DNA of 43,600 nt from a virus. The translations under genes and the position numbers were made by a program. Location of the stretch: positions 1 through 43,600 of the IMG/VR virus record IMGVR_UViG_3300020159_000703; one strand, 5' to 3'. The notes beneath the pieces were generated by a model, which was not told the DNA's origin, ran no database searches, and saw only the letters and a program-made list of their open reading frames with translations. Shown here piece by piece: positions 5,172 to 38,482 of this stretch (the stretch's first letter is position 1; every line of letters starts with the position of its first letter).

Positions 5172-5711
5172 ATGGCAAAATATCTTTCAACAAAAACTTA
5201 CGGCAACGACCGCGGACTTTCATGCTGTTTTAGACAGTGGAGAAGCACTCATTCACATTGCTCATTACTACACGGATACTCAATTGGAATTAAATTGATC
5301 TTCGAATCGGAGACACTAGATGACCGTAACTGGGTTATGGACTTTGGTGGACTTAAAGCATTCAAAGAATGGTCAGAATGGCAGTTTGATCACACTACTG
5401 TAATGGGCAGTGATGACCCTCATCTAGAAAAGTTCAAAGAACTAGCCAAGTTGGGCAAGCAAGCAGAAGGCGGCGTACTGGATCTACGTATTGTAGAAGC
5501 AGTCGGATGCGAAAAGTTCGCTGAACTAGCATATCGAACAATGAACGAGATTCTAACTGCTTTTCAACAAGGTAAAAGATGGGAGTTGAAAGACAACGAC
5601 GGGTCTATCAAAGCATCTTTCATTGCTAGATATCCTGTTGGTGCTGGTGTTAAACTTCGTTCAGTTGAAGTATTCGAACATGCTGGTAATTCAGCAACAT
5701 ACGAAGGCTAA
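5172..5711 (+). CDS. queD: QueD-like 6-pyruvoyl-/6-carboxy-tetrahydropterin synthase family protein
   Basis: A 179-residue protein of the QueD/PTPS fold. Bacterial QueD converts dihydroneopterin triphosphate to 6-carboxytetrahydropterin on the way to preQ0, queuosine and 7-deazaguanine DNA bases. Aligned by eye with E. coli QueD, the catalytic Cys is C30 (HSHC) and the zinc-site HGH appears as HGY (H34, Y36). NWVMDFGGLKAFKEW and QFDHTTV match the second conserved block with its Asp-His pair. Marine phage QueD-like proteins share the phrase SCCFRQ...SHC..LHGY, so this is a phage subfamily. The start is well supported by AAGGAGA six bases upstream. No queC, queE, folE or dpdA partner lies in the window, so whether it serves DNA modification or host metabolism is open. 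Confidence 0.8.
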   Translation: MAKYLSTKTYGNDRGLSCCFRQWRSTHSHCSLLHGYSIGIKLIFESETLDDRNWVMDFGGLKAFKEWSEWQFDHTTVMGSDDPHLEKFKELAKLGKQAEGGVLDLRIVEAVGCEKFAELAYRTMNEILTAFQQGKRWELKDNDGSIKASFIARYPVGAGVKLRSVEVFEHAGNSATYEG

Positions 5712-8875: not shown

Positions 8876-9116
8876 CTTTCGGTTTACGACCTGATTTCTT
8901 TCCAGCTGCTGCTTTTTGAGGAGCAGCTTTTTTTGCCGGTGCTTTTGGAGCAGGTGGTTTAGCCGGAGCAGTTGGTTTAACATTATTTGTTGTTGAATCT
9001 TCAGCTACTACTGGTTTAACTTCTGCTACTGGGGCAGGCACTTCTACTTTATATGGTACTTCTGTTTTTGTTTCAACAGGTGTGCCACTAAAAAGTTTTT
9101 TAATAAATCCAAGCAT
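8868..9116 (-). CDS. Small Ala/Pro/Lys-rich basic protein (histone-tail-like)
   Basis: 82 residues. Residues 1-10 (MLGFIKKLFS) form an amphipathic hydrophobic start, 11-45 are Val/Pro/Glu-rich, and 46-82 are almost entirely Ala, Pro and Lys (PAKPPAPKAPAKKAAPQKAA, then GKKSGRKPKAK), like eukaryotic or bacterial H1-type tails. The start is strongly supported by AAGGAG seven bases before the ATG and a perfect late box at 9136-9143 on the same strand. It lies antisense between uvsE and iscU, which both read rightwards. Late expression and a strongly basic tail suggest nucleic-acid binding, for example in packaged DNA. That is inference; no domain is recognised. Confidence 0.75.
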   Translation of the reverse strand: MLGFIKKLFSGTPVETKTEVPYKVEVPAPVAEVKPVVAEDSTTNNVKPTAPAKPPAPKAPAKKAAPQKAAAGKKSGRKPKAK

Positions 9117-9135
9117 GGTTAATCTCCTTGTGGGT

Positions 9136-9143
9136 TATTTATA
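9136..9143 (-). promoter_or_regulatory. T4-type late promoter box, perfect consensus (minus strand)
   Basis: The minus strand reads TATAAATA, ending 19 bases before the ATG at 9116, with the ribosome binding site AAGGAG between them. It marks the basic protein gene as a separate late unit. Confidence 0.7.
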
Positions 9144-9171
9144 TGGTAAATATCATGAGGGATATGTAAAA

Positions 9172-9561
9172 ATGGCTTATTCAGACAAAGTAATAGATCA
9201 TTACGAAAACCCAAGAAATGTGGGCAAATTAGAAATAGACGACACTGTAGGAACGGGCATGGTTGGTGCTCCTGCTTGCGGTGATGTAATGAAACTACAA
9301 ATAAAGGTAGATCATGATACAGGTATTATTACAGATGCGAAATTTAAAACGTATGGCTGTGGATCGGCTATCGCGAGTTCGAGTCTTGTCACAGAGTGGC
9401 TCAAAGGCAAAACCCTTGACGAAGCAGGAACAATCAAAAACTCCGAAATCGCCACAGAACTAGCACTACCTACAGTTAAGATCCATTGTTCAATTCTAGC
9501 AGAAGATGCTATCAAGGCCGCTGTATCAGACTACAAGAGCAAACATGATCACACTAACTGA
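9172..9561 (+). CDS. iscU: IscU iron-sulfur cluster scaffold protein
   Basis: 129 residues beginning MAYSDKVIDHYENPRNVG, very close to bacterial IscU over the full length. The frame is open upstream to 9082, but homology fixes the start at 9172. Cluster-ligand residues are all present: C36 and D38 (GAPACGD), C63 (KTYGCGS), H105 and C106 (KIHCS). The HscA chaperone recognition site, LPPVK in E. coli, reads LPTVK at residues 99-103. IscU receives sulfur from IscS and assembles [2Fe-2S] clusters in the cytosol. No iscS, hscA, hscB or fdx is in the window, so it must use host partners. The similarity to E. coli IscU remembered from the family is high enough to suggest acquisition from a bacterium. 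It overlaps iscA by 17 bases. Confidence 0.93.
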   Translation: MAYSDKVIDHYENPRNVGKLEIDDTVGTGMVGAPACGDVMKLQIKVDHDTGIITDAKFKTYGCGSAIASSSLVTEWLKGKTLDEAGTIKNSEIATELALPTVKIHCSILAEDAIKAAVSDYKSKHDHTN

Positions 9562-18847: not shown

Positions 18848-19753
18848 ATGGCACAGAGAACATTATCAATAGCACCCCCAGTAACTTGGGAAAAATTTGG
18901 CGGAGAGACCGAATCAATCTTTGCCAAGATCAATGACAACTTTACTGAATTATATCTCAGTATTGGCGGTTCGGGGGTTGACTTAACATCACTCGGGTCT
19001 AGTTTAATCCCAAACCTTGATGAAGATCACGACCTGGGTTCTAGTTCAAAAAAGTGGGATAACATTTATGTAAGTTCAACTGGATTACATATTGGAACTG
19101 CTGTAATTACTTCTACAGGCGGTATTGTAGATTTACCATTAGGTTCAACTATTGGCGGTGTTAATCCAGCTGTTCCTAGTGCGTTGTCAATTACTTCTAT
19201 AGAATTAGATTCCGGAGTATCCGTTGACAATATTAGTACAGATACTACATTTGGTGTAGATAATGATAATTCCACACTGGCTACTAAATTAGCTGTAAAA
19301 ACCTATGTTGACAACGAAATACCAACAGATATTAATCAGTTATCTGATGTTGATAGTCTTCTTGGAGCAGCTTTAGAAAGTAGAATAACTGCTGTTAATA
19401 CTACCGGAAGTTTAGCAACCAACGCTTCAGAAAATTTAACTTTAGTAGGTTTTAAAAGTTATGCTTTGTTAAAAATATTAACAAACAGATCTGCGTGGGT
19501 CCGGGTGTATACATCACAAGCTGCTAGATCCGCCGATACTTCAAGACTGATTACTGACGATCCATTACCTGGTTCAGGAGTTATAGCCGAGGCCATAACT
19601 GACGGAACTAATCCAGTTTTGATATCGCCAAGTATTGTTGGATTTAATGATGAAACTATTCCTACGTCTGACATTTATGTAAGGGTAACTAATACCAACG
19701 CTGTCACTGGCACTGTTACTGTTACACTATCTTTAATAAAATTAGAGGCTTAA
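18848..19753 (+). CDS. Virion-type structural protein with shared N-terminal module
   Basis: 301 residues. Residues 8-38 (VTWEKFGGETESIF, AKINDNFTELYLSIGG) match the N-terminal module of the giant protein before it, suggesting a common way of attaching to the tail. DEDHDLGSSSKKWDNIYVSSTGLHIG is a beta-helix phrase common in phage fibres and reappears as DVDNTYDLGTASKKWNTLYA in the protein at 22166. The C-terminal 120 residues (KSYALLKILTNRSAWVRVYTS to VTVTLSLIKLEA) look like one compact beta domain of the kind that caps fibres. It begins two bases after the giant gene and ends just before the protease gene. The function is structural by inference. Confidence 0.78.
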   Translation: MAQRTLSIAPPVTWEKFGGETESIFAKINDNFTELYLSIGGSGVDLTSLGSSLIPNLDEDHDLGSSSKKWDNIYVSSTGLHIGTAVITSTGGIVDLPLGSTIGGVNPAVPSALSITSIELDSGVSVDNISTDTTFGVDNDNSTLATKLAVKTYVDNEIPTDINQLSDVDSLLGAALESRITAVNTTGSLATNASENLTLVGFKSYALLKILTNRSAWVRVYTSQAARSADTSRLITDDPLPGSGVIAEAITDGTNPVLISPSIVGFNDETIPTSDIYVRVTNTNAVTGTVTVTLSLIKLEA

Positions 19754-19754
19754 C

Positions 19755-21410
19755 ATGTCTGAAATAGATCGTTATGAATATATAGTGACTCTTAACAATA
19801 GAGAAGATCTACCTAATTTCTATGACGACATGGAAACTCCTGGTGGTGATTTATATATTCCTGATCGTGCTGTAGCTGTGGCCAGCAGAAGACATATCAG
19901 CAGAAATACACATTACTATCTCACAGAACAAGAAGCAGATTTATTAAAAAATGATCCTCGAGTATTAGCAGTTTCTAGATTGCCTAGAGATCTTGGCATG
20001 ATCCCCATTTCACATTGGCAGCAGACTGGAAAATTTGAAAAGAGTACTGCTGTTCAATCCACTGATAAGAATTGGGGATTGGCTAGAATTGTTAATGGAG
20101 TTCAAACTGACAATTGGGGCAGCAATGGACTTTTTAACGAATTACAAACTTCCATAACTACTGATTCAGCAGGAGAGCATGTAGATGTTGTAATCGTAGA
20201 TGCTCATATAAACCCTAACCATCCCGAGTTTGCCGTCAACGAAGACGGCACGGGCGGCACTAGAGTTATTCAATACAACTGGTTTCAACATCAGGCGGCT
20301 GTTGGATTAAGCGGGTTAGGAACATACAGTTACACTAGTTTTACCAGTAATCATGGTACACACGTAGCAGGGACAGTTGCAGGTAATACTCAGGGGTGGG
20401 CTAGAAAATCTAACATATACTATATGGAATTTAATTACAGTCCATTTCCTCAACCAGACGGATGGGCAGTGTATCTGTTTGATTTTATTAGAGCATGGCA
20501 CAACAGCAAACCAATTAACCCAATCACTGGACGTAGAAATCCCACTGTGACTAATAACAGCTGGGGATATAGTTATGGTAACATTTCTCTAAGTGCTATT
20601 ACTAGTGTAACATATCGAGAAGCAACCACTGACCTAACTGGTTTATCTACCGCAGCTAAAAAAATTCAGTTAGAAAACAATGGGGTTCCTGTGCCGGGTG
20701 GGACATATCTGTTTAGAACACCAGCAAGAAACTATGCGTTAGATGCCGATGTAATTGATGCGGTTGAAGACGGAATTATCGTAGTAGCATCAGCTGGTAA
20801 CAGTTATTGGAATATGACCAACGACCCAACTCATCCAGATTATAATAATAATGTGTTTGACGGCGGGGTGCTTTATCATTCCAACGGTTCTAGTCCAGGA
20901 GCAGCAGAAGGTGCTATTTGCGTGGGTGCGTTAGGTACTTCTACCCAAGAATACAAAATAAATTTCAGCAATTATGGTGATAGGATAGATATCTGGGCAC
21001 CTGGGCAAAATATAATATCGTCTGTTTTTAATTCTACAGCAGCTTCTGAGTTTGGTATTTCACTGGCTAATGACCCAAGAAATTCTGTTTTTAAAATAGG
21101 ATCAATATCAGGTACTAGTATGGCCAGCCCGCAGGTAGCGGGAGTAATTGCTTGTATGATGAGCAGATATCCTAACTATACCTCACAAGAATTATACAAT
21201 TATTTAATTGCCAATACTAAAACAGGCCAGATAGGAACTACCAACGGAAACCATGGTGATTATACAAATATTAGAGATAGTGTAAACAAATATCTGTATT
21301 TCCCAGTAGAAAGAGTACAACAAGGCACAGCTTTTCCAGACGTTAGCTACGATCTGCGTCCAACTACAGGCAACATATATCCTCGGCTACGTATTAGAAG
21401 ACGCGGATAA
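19755..21410 (+). CDS. Subtilisin-family serine protease (S8)
   Basis: 551 residues with a complete S8 catalytic set: Asp149 (VVIVDAHINPNHPEF), His200 (SNHGTHVAGTVAG), oxyanion Asn349 (VVASAGNSYW) and Ser455 (SGTSMASPQVAGV). Residues 8-78 resemble an inhibitor-type propeptide: YEYIVTLNNREDLPNFYDD, then a strand ending DPRVLAVSRLP. There is no signal peptide, so it would act in the cell or in the virion. The last 50 residues after the catalytic domain (VSYDLRPTTGNIYPRLRIRR) are extra. It is embedded, without a promoter of its own, between fibre genes, two bases after one gene and 22 before the next. That suggests it processes fibres or rides on the tail to digest host surface protein; both are inference. 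Confidence 0.92.
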   Translation: MSEIDRYEYIVTLNNREDLPNFYDDMETPGGDLYIPDRAVAVASRRHISRNTHYYLTEQEADLLKNDPRVLAVSRLPRDLGMIPISHWQQTGKFEKSTAVQSTDKNWGLARIVNGVQTDNWGSNGLFNELQTSITTDSAGEHVDVVIVDAHINPNHPEFAVNEDGTGGTRVIQYNWFQHQAAVGLSGLGTYSYTSFTSNHGTHVAGTVAGNTQGWARKSNIYYMEFNYSPFPQPDGWAVYLFDFIRAWHNSKPINPITGRRNPTVTNNSWGYSYGNISLSAITSVTYREATTDLTGLSTAAKKIQLENNGVPVPGGTYLFRTPARNYALDADVIDAVEDGIIVVASAGNSYWNMTNDPTHPDYNNNVFDGGVLYHSNGSSPGAAEGAICVGALGTSTQEYKINFSNYGDRIDIWAPGQNIISSVFNSTAASEFGISLANDPRNSVFKIGSISGTSMASPQVAGVIACMMSRYPNYTSQELYNYLIANTKTGQIGTTNGNHGDYTNIRDSVNKYLYFPVERVQQGTAFPDVSYDLRPTTGNIYPRLRIRRRG

Positions 21411-21432: not shown

Positions 21433-22152
21433 ATGGCTATAGAAACAGTAAACTTAGGAAATTTAGTTAACGACGGGCTCGGTGACGATCTACGCACGGC
21501 TTTTCAAAAGGTTAATAACAGCTTATTATCCTTAAACAGCGAACTGGTGTTATCAGGTCGAAGCCTAGGTGACGGCGCTGCCGTTTATAAAAGAAAATCA
21601 AATACTAGTGGGACCGTAACAATACCTCCCGAAGCAGATGCTGATAGATTAGAATTTAGATCAATTAAAGGATCAGCTAACATAGTTGTAACAGAAAACT
21701 TAAATGATGTTACCATTTCTAGTCCGTTACAAAATGTGTTTACTAAAGTTTCAGTTCCCGAAGCTAGTATTATTGTTGGAGCAGATACCTCTGATACTAC
21801 GCTAACTCTAATAGGTGGTGTTAACACTTCGTTGGCGGTCAATGGTAAAACTATTACAATTAACACAGATCCTGTAGGAAATATTCTTTTACAAGACTTA
21901 GATTTAAACACAAACGATATTATCGGTACTGGTAATATAACAATTAACGGAAACATAACTGCTAATAACTTTAGCGGAGACCTTTGGGGCTATAATGGTT
22001 TTGAATCAGTGAGTGCGTTGTATTCATTTGATTTTGGAACTTATACAAATGTATTCAACAATGCTCTACAATTTATTGTTTCTAACACTGACTTTGATAT
22101 GGGGACTATCTTAACCCCAACTGATCTAGAAATAGATCTCGGCACGTTTTAA
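21433..22152 (+). CDS. Virion-type structural protein with shared N-terminal module
   Basis: 239 residues. The start (TVNLGNLVNDGLGDDLRTAF, then QKVNNSLLSL) is another copy of the N-terminal module seen at 10326 and 18848. The rest is short beta repeats such as NTNDIIGTGNITINGNITAN, the same phrase type as in the next protein (NGNDITGTGNIDITGDVDVA). The C-terminal 60 residues (GFESVSALYSFDFGTYTNVF) look globular. Probably a minor fibre or fibre-attached protein. A late box overlaps the upstream stop. Confidence 0.72.
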   Translation: MAIETVNLGNLVNDGLGDDLRTAFQKVNNSLLSLNSELVLSGRSLGDGAAVYKRKSNTSGTVTIPPEADADRLEFRSIKGSANIVVTENLNDVTISSPLQNVFTKVSVPEASIIVGADTSDTTLTLIGGVNTSLAVNGKTITINTDPVGNILLQDLDLNTNDIIGTGNITINGNITANNFSGDLWGYNGFESVSALYSFDFGTYTNVFNNALQFIVSNTDFDMGTILTPTDLEIDLGTF

Positions 22153-34845: not shown

Positions 34846-35655
34846 ATGACAGACTACTATAAAATACTAGGGATTGGCAAAAACGCTAATCAAGAAGAAA
34901 TTAAAAAAGCATATCGTAGCTTGGCTATGAAGCACCATCCTGACCGCGGTGGTGATGCTAATAAGTTTAAAGAAATTGAAGAAGCATACCGTACTCTTAG
35001 CGATGAAAATAAAAGATACGAGTATGATAATCCTCACCAATCGCATTTTGCTCACAGTATGGGAGGACACGAAGATGTGTTTTCAACATTCTTTGGCGGC
35101 CCGCATTTTGGATTTGGATTTAACCAACCACAACGTAATAATAATATAGGTGCTACTGTTGCGTTAACTTTAGAAGAAGTGTTAGTTGGCAAAGCAATTG
35201 ATGCTGAAGTTAGTTTTAAAAACGGACAAAGAAAATTAGTGTCTATTAATATTCCTGCCGGAGTTGACGATAACATACAAATTAGATACCCGGGTATGGG
35301 AGATCACAGCCTTTCTAAGATGCCGCCGGGCGATCTAATAGTTACTGTTAGAGTTTTACCGCACGACGTTTGGCGAAGAGACGGGTCTAATATTATTGCT
35401 GAGAAAGAGATTAATGTATGGGATGCTCTGTTAGGCACAGAAGTAGTATTTGAAACTTTAGAAAAGAAAACATTAAGCATACATGTTCCGGCTGGTACAC
35501 AACCAGGAACTGTGTTTAGTTGTAAAGGCGAAGGACTCCCTCATCCAAGATCTGGAGTTAGGGGTGCTGCGTTGATTAAGGTGCGTATTAAGATACCAAA
35601 AACCTTGTCTGATCAAGAAAGAAAAACCATTGAGGATTTAAAAAATGGCATTTAA
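34846..35655 (+). CDS. dnaJ: DnaJ/CbpA-type J-domain co-chaperone
   Basis: 269 residues. The J domain occupies residues 1-65 with [20 protein letters not shown] and the HPD motif ([17 protein letters not shown]). A Gly/Phe stretch follows ([11 protein letters not shown]). There is no zinc-finger domain, and the C-terminal substrate-binding domains resemble CbpA ([36 protein letters not shown]). It stimulates a DnaK-type Hsp70 and presents substrates; no phage DnaK is in the window, so host DnaK is the likely partner. It is the first gene of the operon with def and clpA, and overlaps def by 11 bases. Confidence 0.9.
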
Positions 35656-36136
35656 ATTAGGACCACACAACAGTCTAACAGAAGTAAGTACTGACTGGAG
35701 TTTTAGCTCTGATCTAAATGCTCCCGAGATAGAAAAAGAAATGATAGAGTTTATGCTGGCCAATAATGGTATTGGGTTAGCAGCTAATCAAATTGGTGTT
35801 ACTAAAAATGTATTCGTGATCGGTAGCAAACACATCCCAGGCTACGAGCCAATGGCTGTGTTTAATCCTAAAATTATTGAGATCAGCAAGGACACTGAAC
35901 TATTTAAAGAAGGGTGTTTAAGTTATCCAGGCCTATGGCTAACGATCAAACGTCCTAAGGCAATTATCGCAGAATATCAGAACAGCCAAGGTGAAACAAT
36001 TACCGCAGAGATGGACGGGTTAATAGCACGATGTTTTCAACATGAGTTCGATCACTTGAACGGAATCTGCTTCGTTGACAGAGTATCGCAAATGAAGTTA
36101 CAATTAGCTATGAAAAAAATTAACAAGAGAAAATAA
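35645..36136 (+). CDS. def: Peptide deformylase
   Basis: 163 residues. All three family motifs are present: [10 protein letters not shown] (residues 42-51), EGCLSYPG (metal ligand C91) and QHEFDHLNG (H133, catalytic E134, H137). It removes the formyl group from the first methionine of new proteins, with a bound metal ion. Phage deformylases are known from marine cyanophages and may speed maturation of proteins made in bulk. The length is close to bacterial Def (168). The coding start overlaps the dnaJ-like gene by 11 bases; clpA follows after 3 bases. Confidence 0.93.
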
Positions 36137-36139
36137 CCG

Positions 36140-38482
36140 ATGCTAGAACCAAGTAAAAAATTACAAGTAATCTTTGAAAAAGCAATCGACATTGCTCAAC
36201 AACTCGAACACGAATATATTACTATTGAACATTTAACATTTTCAATTATTTTAGACCCAGAAACATATAATAGTCTTGCCCAGGCAAAATTTGCCAGCGA
36301 GTTTATTAAAGTAAATCTTGAGCATTTTCTCAAAACAAAATTAGAAGATATTAGAACAGGGGCATCGACCCAGAAACCTAAAAGAACTACATCAGTAGAG
36401 CGAGTGCTCAACAGAGCATTTACCCAAGCACTGTTTAGTGGCCGCCAAGTTATTGAAGTTGAAGATGTGCTGATTGCTATAATTGGTGAAAGAAAAAGTT
36501 TTAGTTTTTACTACATGACTAAAGCTGGCATTACAAAAGAAAGGCTAATTGAATATTTCCAATCAAAATTTGAAAACGAAATTGAATTAGACGAAGATCG
36601 CCAACCAAAACTTAATACAAATCAGTTGGATAAAATTCTTAATCAGTTCTGTACAAACCTTAGCCTTTTAGCAAAACAAAGAAAAATTGATCCCGTAATT
36701 GGTCGAGATGACGAACTAGAAAAAATTCAATTAATTCTAGCACGTAGATCAAAGTGTAACGTATTACTTATTGGTGAACCAGGTGTTGGTAAGACTGCTA
36801 TCGCAGAAGGGCTGGCTCGTAAGATTTTTGAAAAGAAAGTTCCTAAGTTTATTCTTGATCATCAAGTATACACCTTAGACATCAGTGCGTTGCTTGCCGG
36901 TTCAAAATATCGTGGCGACTTTGAAGAACGAATTAAAGCTGTGTTAACTGCGTTAGAAAAGAAAGGTAAAATTATTCTTTTCATCGATGAAGCACACATG
37001 ATGCAGGGTGCTGGGGCAGCTAATGGGTCATCTAACGATCTTGCTAATATTTTAAAACCTATGTTAACCAAAGGCACAATGAAAGTTATTGCGTCAACAA
37101 CATGGGAAGAGTATCGCAAGCATTTCGAAAAGGATCGTGCGTTAATGCGTCGATTCCAACGTGTTACAGTTGACGAGCCTACACCAGAACTAACAGTTAA
37201 AATTATTAAAGGAATTCGCAAGTACTACGAGCAATTTCACAGTGTTAAAATCACTGATGCTGCTATCGAACAAGCAGTAAAGATGAGTATCAAATACATG
37301 CCTGATAAGAAATTACCAGATAAAGCCATCGATATTATTGACTGCTCTGCTGCTCGATTCAAAATTAAAGACATAGAAACAGACGGAAGCAACATTGTTG
37401 ATCTAGAACAAGTTATGTTTGAAGTCAGCAAGATGACTAATATGCCGTTTGAAACTGTAAGTGAAAAAGAATCTAAAAACTTAGGTGACTTAGAAGACAA
37501 TCTTAAAAACGTAGTGTTTGGCCAGGACGTGGCTATTCGCAATTTGTTAGATAAGATCTTTGTAGCACAAGCAGGAATGAAACAGCCTAATAAACCTGTG
37601 GGATGTTTCTTATTTGTAGGACCTACAGGATGTGGTAAGACAGAAACTGCTAAACAACTATCAGATAAAATGGCTATGCCATTGGTAAGATTTGATATGA
37701 GTGAATATCAAGAGAAGCACAGTGTTGCTAAACTCATTGGTGCTCCTCCAGGGTATGTTGGCTTTGAAGATAACGCAGGCCAATTGATTACCAAGCTACA
37801 AGAAACTCCTAACTGTGTGCTATTACTTGACGAAATAGAAAAGGCTCACCCCGATGTGTCTAATATTTTGTTACAATTTATGGACAACGGTTTTGTAACT
37901 GGATCAAACGGTAAACAAGCTGACGGACGTAATTGTATTTTGATTATGACTTCAAACTTAGGTGCTGCTGACAACGAGAAAAACACAATTGGCTTTGGTG
38001 ATTTGTCTAAAGACGGCGAAGATGACAAAGCAGTTAAGAAGTTCTTTGCTCCCGAGTTCCGTAATCGCTTAGATGCCATTGTTAAGTTTGGCGGATTGTC
38101 ATCCGAAACAGTAAGAGTCATTGTAGATAAGTTTATGCGTGAACTTAACACACAGATCAAAGACAAAGGTGTCGAAATTATCCTTACAGAAGATGCTAGA
38201 GATTGGTTAGCAAAACAAGGGTACAATCCTAAAATGGGTGCTAGACCGTTGAATCGTTTGATTGATAATGAAATCAAATCCCCATTAAGCAGAAAAATAC
38301 TGTTTGGTGAGCTAAAAAATGGTGGACGAGTATTTGTCAATGTAGTTGACAATAAGCTAGAGTTTGTGTTAAAATCATCTGAAGAAGAACTTGATAAGTT
38401 TGAAAAGAAAGCGTTTAAACATCATAGAAAAATCCTTGATGGTGCTCTGCTAATTAAAGATGATACATTACAAACCAACTAA
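36140..38482 (+). CDS. clpA: ClpA-type AAA+ unfoldase
   Basis: 780 residues. An N-terminal Clp domain (about 1-150, LEPSKKLQVIFEKAIDIAQQ) is followed by two AAA+ modules. Walker A1 is GEPGVGKT (near 212) with Walker B FIDEAH (near 280); Walker A2 is GPTGCGKT (near 494) with Walker B LLLDEIEKAHPD (near 560). The long middle domain of ClpB is absent, so this is ClpA-like. An IGF tripeptide (near residue 617, KNTIGFGDLS) lies where ClpA and ClpX carry the ClpP-docking loop, so it may form a protease with host ClpP. No clpP or clpS is in the window. It is a full-length phage copy, following def by 3 bases. Confidence 0.92.
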   Translation: MLEPSKKLQVIFEKAIDIAQQLEHEYITIEHLTFSIILDPETYNSLAQAKFASEFIKVNLEHFLKTKLEDIRTGASTQKPKRTTSVERVLNRAFTQALFSGRQVIEVEDVLIAIIGERKSFSFYYMTKAGITKERLIEYFQSKFENEIELDEDRQPKLNTNQLDKILNQFCTNLSLLAKQRKIDPVIGRDDELEKIQLILARRSKCNVLLIGEPGVGKTAIAEGLARKIFEKKVPKFILDHQVYTLDISALLAGSKYRGDFEERIKAVLTALEKKGKIILFIDEAHMMQGAGAANGSSNDLANILKPMLTKGTMKVIASTTWEEYRKHFEKDRALMRRFQRVTVDEPTPELTVKIIKGIRKYYEQFHSVKITDAAIEQAVKMSIKYMPDKKLPDKAIDIIDCSAARFKIKDIETDGSNIVDLEQVMFEVSKMTNMPFETVSEKESKNLGDLEDNLKNVVFGQDVAIRNLLDKIFVAQAGMKQPNKPVGCFLFVGPTGCGKTETAKQLSDKMAMPLVRFDMSEYQEKHSVAKLIGAPPGYVGFEDNAGQLITKLQETPNCVLLLDEIEKAHPDVSNILLQFMDNGFVTGSNGKQADGRNCILIMTSNLGAADNEKNTIGFGDLSKDGEDDKAVKKFFAPEFRNRLDAIVKFGGLSSETVRVIVDKFMRELNTQIKDKGVEIILTEDARDWLAKQGYNPKMGARPLNRLIDNEIKSPLSRKILFGELKNGGRVFVNVVDNKLEFVLKSSEEELDKFEKKAFKHHRKILDGALLIKDDTLQTN

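Follow-up and report, generated by a model that had tools for sequence, protein, structure and literature searches.

What is a subtilisin doing in the middle of a tail-fiber operon? The window analyzed here, the whole 43,600-nucleotide stretch of IMG/VR virus record IMGVR_UViG_3300020159_000703, belongs to a virus related to viruses of cyanobacteria and places an S8-type protease gene within a tightly spaced plus-strand run of structural genes (Table 1). A sequence-only reading of the window had offered three candidate roles for its product: maturation of the giant fiber proteins, release of fiber ends, or service as a virion-mounted enzyme that cuts through host surface proteins. The last of these is the best supported, by the pairing of the protease with a fiber domain, by lectin and esterase-like fusions among its relatives and by the virion label of one of them (S-SCSM1), and we lean slightly toward it, in the form of a protease carried on a baseplate-attached fiber and cutting host surface proteins.

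The identity of the enzyme is the least complicated part of the problem. The ORF is intact, and Pfam Peptidase_S8 (PF00082) matches residues 142-492 (E 1.3e-28, 100.6 bits, cutoff 21.8); matches to Pfam 2C_adapt and TTC3 fell below cutoff and were disregarded. The profile of phrog_9158, a family listed as of 'unknown function', matches residues 7-522 (E 2.2e-89), which is full-length homology. An AlphaFold2 model built with 56 sequences is confident (pLDDT 89.2; a run with 9 sequences gave pLDDT 40.6 and was set aside), and Foldseek retrieves proteinase-K-type structures with it, including 2b6n at E 2.2e-19 and a TM-score of 0.85 (by target length). The order of the catalytic triad, the oxyanion-hole Asn and the predicted fold place the ORF in peptidase family S8. 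D149, H200, N349 (in SAGN, the column of N155, the oxyanion-hole Asn of subtilisin BPN') and S455 (in GTSMASP) all lie where the sequence-only reading had put them. Among 109 ORFs surveyed, 108 have D149, 107 have H200, 106 have N349 and 106 have S455, the exceptions being alignment gaps only: two are fragments (L008 and L120), and in the third (L009) a large insertion opens a gap at N and S in the profile alignment, a separate alignment showing both residues. No catalytic residue varies among the 106-108 members covering the respective columns; the serine, whose loss in relatives had been named beforehand as counting against the sequence-only reading, is kept in 106 of 106. (In L008:1-1535 the protease lies in two overlapping frames, a frameshift or an assembly error.) Because this invariance is coupled with a dN/dS of ~0.1 for the window protease relative to its near relatives, chance can be dismissed as the origin of the match and catalysis is under selection. 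The C-terminal tail carries a motif of the family that was considered as a general fiber tail signal and rejected: it is present in one of 833 non-protease ORFs, and is therefore largely protease-specific.

The protein starts MSEIDRYEYIVTL, without an obvious signal peptide, as had been read from the sequence. The propeptide-like character attributed to its N-terminus is a more qualified matter. Residues 7-75 of the AlphaFold2 model are arranged strand-helix-strand-strand-helix-strand, the beta-alpha-beta-beta-alpha-beta topology of I9, and this predicted likeness makes a propeptide plausible; conservation and Pfam speak less clearly for it. Pfam Inhibitor_I9 matches three of 56 family members, and those weakly (best E 0.047), and column identity is 0.60 in the N-terminal domain versus 0.56 in the catalytic core. 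A disposable propeptide would not usually exceed the catalytic core in conservation, even by so small a margin, so that the domain may have a lasting structural role. Foldseek alignments reaching across propeptides have an rmsd of ~21 and so fail to reproduce the zymogen with its propeptide docked; self-inhibition by the N-terminal domain is possible. The protease shares fold, catalytic residues and, in the model, an I9-like N-terminal topology with secreted proteinase-K/subtilisin S8 enzymes that have I9 propeptides and, unlike them, has no obvious signal peptide, an N-terminal domain that exceeds the core in conservation, a ~30-residue linker, and a coupling to a phage fiber gene.

Several genes of the run have N-termini of the T4 gp9/gp10 type or the Mtd type. 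The spacing on the downstream side of the protease was correctly given as 22 bases (next start at 21433); on the upstream side a single base, rather than the two previously counted, separates the stop (19753) from the protease start (19755). Elsewhere in the window are genes for an ATP-dependent protease (phrog_4871, 36140-38482) and a peptide deformylase (35645-36136), as well as a QueD-like (5172-5711) and a NifU-like gene (9082-9561).

Table 1. The protease, its parts and its neighbors (coordinates within the window)
Feature	Coordinates	Strand	Basis or remark
Giant fiber gene, 2839 aa	10326..18845	+	T4 gp9/10-like N-terminus, below Pfam cutoff
Partner fiber gene, 301 aa	18848..19753	+	gp9/gp10-like N-terminal helix motif (ESIFAKINDNFTELY); C-terminal CTD-A
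CTD-A, ~130 aa conserved C-terminal domain, proposed protease dock	19352..19750	+	residues 169-300 of the 301 of the partner
S8 (subtilisin-like) protease gene, phrog_9158 family	19755..21410	+	551 aa, ATG to stop
N-terminal I9-propeptide-like domain, residues 7-75	19773..19979	+	AlphaFold2 model
Catalytic core, residues 141-495	20175..21239	+	PF00082 match
Catalytic Asp149 codon	20199..20201	+	ORF translation, family alignment
Catalytic His200 codon	20352..20354	+	ORF translation, family alignment
Oxyanion-hole Asn349 codon (SAGN)	20799..20801	+	ORF translation, family alignment
Catalytic Ser455 codon (GTSMASP)	21117..21119	+	ORF translation, family alignment
C-terminal tail, family motif (S/T)GxxYPR	21312..21407	+	poorly ordered in AlphaFold2 model
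Downstream structural gene, 239 aa	21433..22152	+	phrog_677 N-terminus; 22 nt after protease
Fiber/spike-like gene, 457 aa	22166..23539	+	Mtd_N
Ig-like (He_PIG) structural gene, 857 aa	23550..26123	+	Pfam

The partner gene immediately upstream carries the argument about function. Its N-terminal motif resembles that of the neighboring giant fiber, and the corresponding CTD-A protein of S-CREM1 has a significant T4_gp9_10_N N-terminus; these motifs suggest attachment to the baseplate at one end of the partner, with CTD-A at the other. A Pfam scan of the window partner protein yields no match, and a search of the PDB with a CTD-A profile no relative even at E 10. Where sequence upstream of the protease is available, the gene before it almost always terminates a few bases from the protease start; in 99 main-clade loci with CTD-A the upstream stop lies between -11 and +4 nt from that start, and at exactly +1 in 65 of the 99. 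Any two of these loci have homologous CTD-A sequences, which make up the C-terminal ~126-133 aa, while the N-terminal parts ahead of them range from 10 to 1144 aa (74 complete cases) and are homologous in only 13% of pairs. At two of the loci (L047 and L062) the proteases are 88% and the C-terminal domains 86% identical, and the N-terminal parts are mostly unalignable. Five divergent proteases (P-SSM2, S-SCSM1, S-T4, Sf-CH8 and AG-345-L05) follow genes that share a different C-terminal domain, CTD-B, and the two dock types separate on the protease tree with one change. Protease identity correlates with C-terminal domain identity at r 0.55, versus 0.39 with coverage of the N-terminal part, which hints weakly at co-evolution of the protease with the domain. 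Across these sequences, the pairing of the protease with a fiber C-terminal domain is near-absolute, and the modules around that domain have been exchanged. The window conforms to the pattern, with its 1-nt gap and an upstream gene ending in CTD-A.

CTD-A also occurs in other company. In Sf-CH1b, S-BM3, S-H9-1, ACG-2014i and S-SCSM1, CTD-A genes are followed, after 1-5 nt, by a different family of ~610-780 aa, and in the siphoviruses P-SS2 and S-CBS2 structural genes carry CTD-A at their end or close to it, with no such protease adjacent. These occurrences indicate that CTD-A is independent of the protease and that the module following it is exchangeable; its position ahead of the ~610-780 aa family is what one would expect of a dock with exchangeable tips. 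Members of that family, of 608-776 aa, lie at L022:4581-6884, L028:5383-7680, L029:5383-7209, L025:3181-5511 and L034:709-2679; FCARTT forms the C-terminus of several, and the one in S-SCSM1 (ORF232) bears a virion-protein label.

By tblastn, 44 phage records contain a phrog_9158 homologue. Almost all belong to T4-like cyanophages; going by their names, 33 are Synechococcus phages, 6 Prochlorococcus phages, 2 Acinetobacter phages and 3 marine single-cell viruses, and query coverage is at least 80% in 39 of the 44. An alignment-based scan of viral contigs yields at least 541 relatives. By an approximate count, in which duplicate records are included, the protease is present in 33 of 381 (~9%) portal-positive 'Synechococcus' phage records; it is an accessory family. 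Relatives in S-CREM1 (UYA57622), S-H38 (QPB07966), S-WAM2, S-H9-1 and P-SSM2 (PSSM2_297) range from 57% to 27% identity, and several database homologues already bear the annotation 'subtilisin-like serine protease' or 'peptidase'. The phrog_9158 proteins of T4-like cyanophages are homologous to the window protease over most or all of their length and share its catalytic residues and its position after a fiber gene; the clade of the window lacks the C-terminal cupredoxin-like, lectin and esterase-like additions that some of them bear. In S-SCSM1 ORF228 a complete catalytic set is followed by LamG/ConA-like lectin domains; the ACG-2014h protease has esterase-like and cupredoxin-like additions. 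The cupredoxin-like domain of marine members (L022:8004-10010, L026:7980-10151, L023:7998-10922, L030:5359-7614), which is also found in cyanophage structural proteins (phrog_677), is C-terminal; in S-CAM1 it is apparently inserted between Asp and His. Behind CTD-A, S-CAM1 has an outlying relative, a 'tail fiber protein' with a divergent S8 fold; a pseudo-enzyme was considered here and rejected, since the alignment retains His, Asn and Ser, and only an Asp-to-Glu change, itself doubtful, would speak for it. The distant giant protein of P-HM2 falls outside the cassette pattern; L021:7263-12758 (P-HM2) and L029:1-2421 (S-BM3) are giant structural proteins annotated as, or matching, S8 (T4-GC_519). 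Relatives in bacterial MAGs (L116-L120, in Gammaproteobacteria, Rhodobacteraceae and Bacteroidetes bins, three of them in one Rhodobacteraceae bin) are probably binned viral contigs.

These facts bear on the notion that the enzyme is a maturation protease, cutting its fiber, its neighbor's C-terminal domain or the giant fibers during assembly, and need not remain in the virion. Its gene sits within the fiber operon, strict coupling to one fiber gene would suit an enzyme and its substrate as well as it suits a fiber and its tip, and an I9-like domain would suit control of timing. However, CTD-A precedes unrelated genes and occurs in siphoviruses without an adjacent protease, the family is accessory, lectin and esterase-like fusions are better suited to an enzyme that works at a surface, and the homologue in S-SCSM1 bears a virion label. 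We consider processing of this kind unlikely; the roles in maturation or release of the giant fibers that the sequence-only reading had put forward fare poorly for the same reasons of distribution.

The S-SCSM1 label deserves scrutiny. The GenBank record designates both ORF228 and the upstream ORF227 as virion proteins; it contains 48 such labels versus 45 MS-detected proteins in the corresponding paper, and because labelled ORFs 91, 213 and 214 are those that the paper's text names as MS-detected, the labels very probably derive from MS. ORF228 is only ~27% identical to the window protease and is a fusion, so that the MS peptides may come from its lectin part, and the authors of that study allow for carry-over after CsCl purification. 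A CTD-A protein, ORF087 of P-SS2, was detected in virions (count 11 in the paper's table); the text on the S-CREM1 virion proteome, a shallow one of 14 proteins, does not mention the 57%-identical peptidase. Presence of the protease in virions is supported by one homologue. Highly expressed enzymes may be carried over into virion preparations, and subtilisins are general proteases; these considerations, together with the lack of an obvious signal peptide, would fit a late enzyme working inside the cell or during lysis, where it would degrade host proteins or aid release, its location among fiber genes being incidental. An incidental location cannot explain a conserved fiber C-terminal domain directly upstream in 99 loci with domain exchange around it, and we judge such a role to be quite improbable. 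That the protein is mainly a fiber-tip adhesin built on a subtilisin fold, with catalysis secondary, is suggested by S-CAM1, with its S8-fold tail fiber protein behind CTD-A, inserted domain and doubtful Asp, but is very improbable in view of the invariant catalytic residues of the phrog_9158 survey.

Since the gene is almost always tied to a conserved tail-fiber end domain, the protease is probably tail-mounted, and the reading that we favor, a virion-borne enzyme, can be set out as follows. The partner protein would form a short fiber, attached to the baseplate through its gp9/gp10-like N-terminus and presenting CTD-A at its other end; the protease, its translation coupled to that of the partner through the start codon that follows, would fold with its own N-terminal I9-like domain and dock on, or co-assemble with, CTD-A at the outer end of the fiber. 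At adsorption it would cut proteins in the outer membrane, S-layer or another coat of the host, allowing the tail to reach its final receptor. Docking on CTD-A is suggested by gene pairing; that the enzyme is active, that its substrates are host surface proteins and that a zymogen stage controls it are presumed.

In T2/S16-type phages, gp37 and gp38 provide a T4-type fiber and a separately encoded tip adhesin. The proposed arrangement is analogous in that a gene directly following a fiber with a conserved C-terminus would supply an exchangeable tip; it is unlike gp37/gp38 in that the tip is a protease and the docking a proposal, and the Pfam and PHROG scans of the window contain no match to gp38 or a glycine-rich adhesin. 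The analogy with tail-spike depolymerases is that a tail enzyme would clear the path to the receptor; depolymerases cut polysaccharides, and this enzyme is a protease. In a review of the phage enzymes that breach cell envelopes the word 'protease' is absent (PMC6116005). The protease family was already known by database annotation; what the present analysis adds is the cassette that it forms with an exchangeable fiber domain. In the open literature (subscription journals were mostly outside the search) we found no description of the function of a cyanophage subtilisin, of its position in the virion or of its pairing with an exchangeable fiber domain.

Sugar- and peptidoglycan-cutting tail enzymes are familiar, protein-cutting ones have hardly been described, and the receptors of cyanophages, with the steps from adsorption to DNA entry, are largely unknown. 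Our more general suggestion, which is tentative and might well fail, is that aquatic T4-like viruses, mostly of cyanobacterial hosts, share a CTD-A/CTD-B dock on which tips can be swapped, and that one such tip is a subtilisin that controls itself and cleaves a host surface protein at adsorption. This proposes a function for phrog_9158 and, if true, would provide a protein-cutting counterpart to the tail-spike depolymerases; a conserved dock with exchangeable tips, among them a protease whose active site is intact, offers a testable handle on host-surface recognition by these abundant aquatic viruses.
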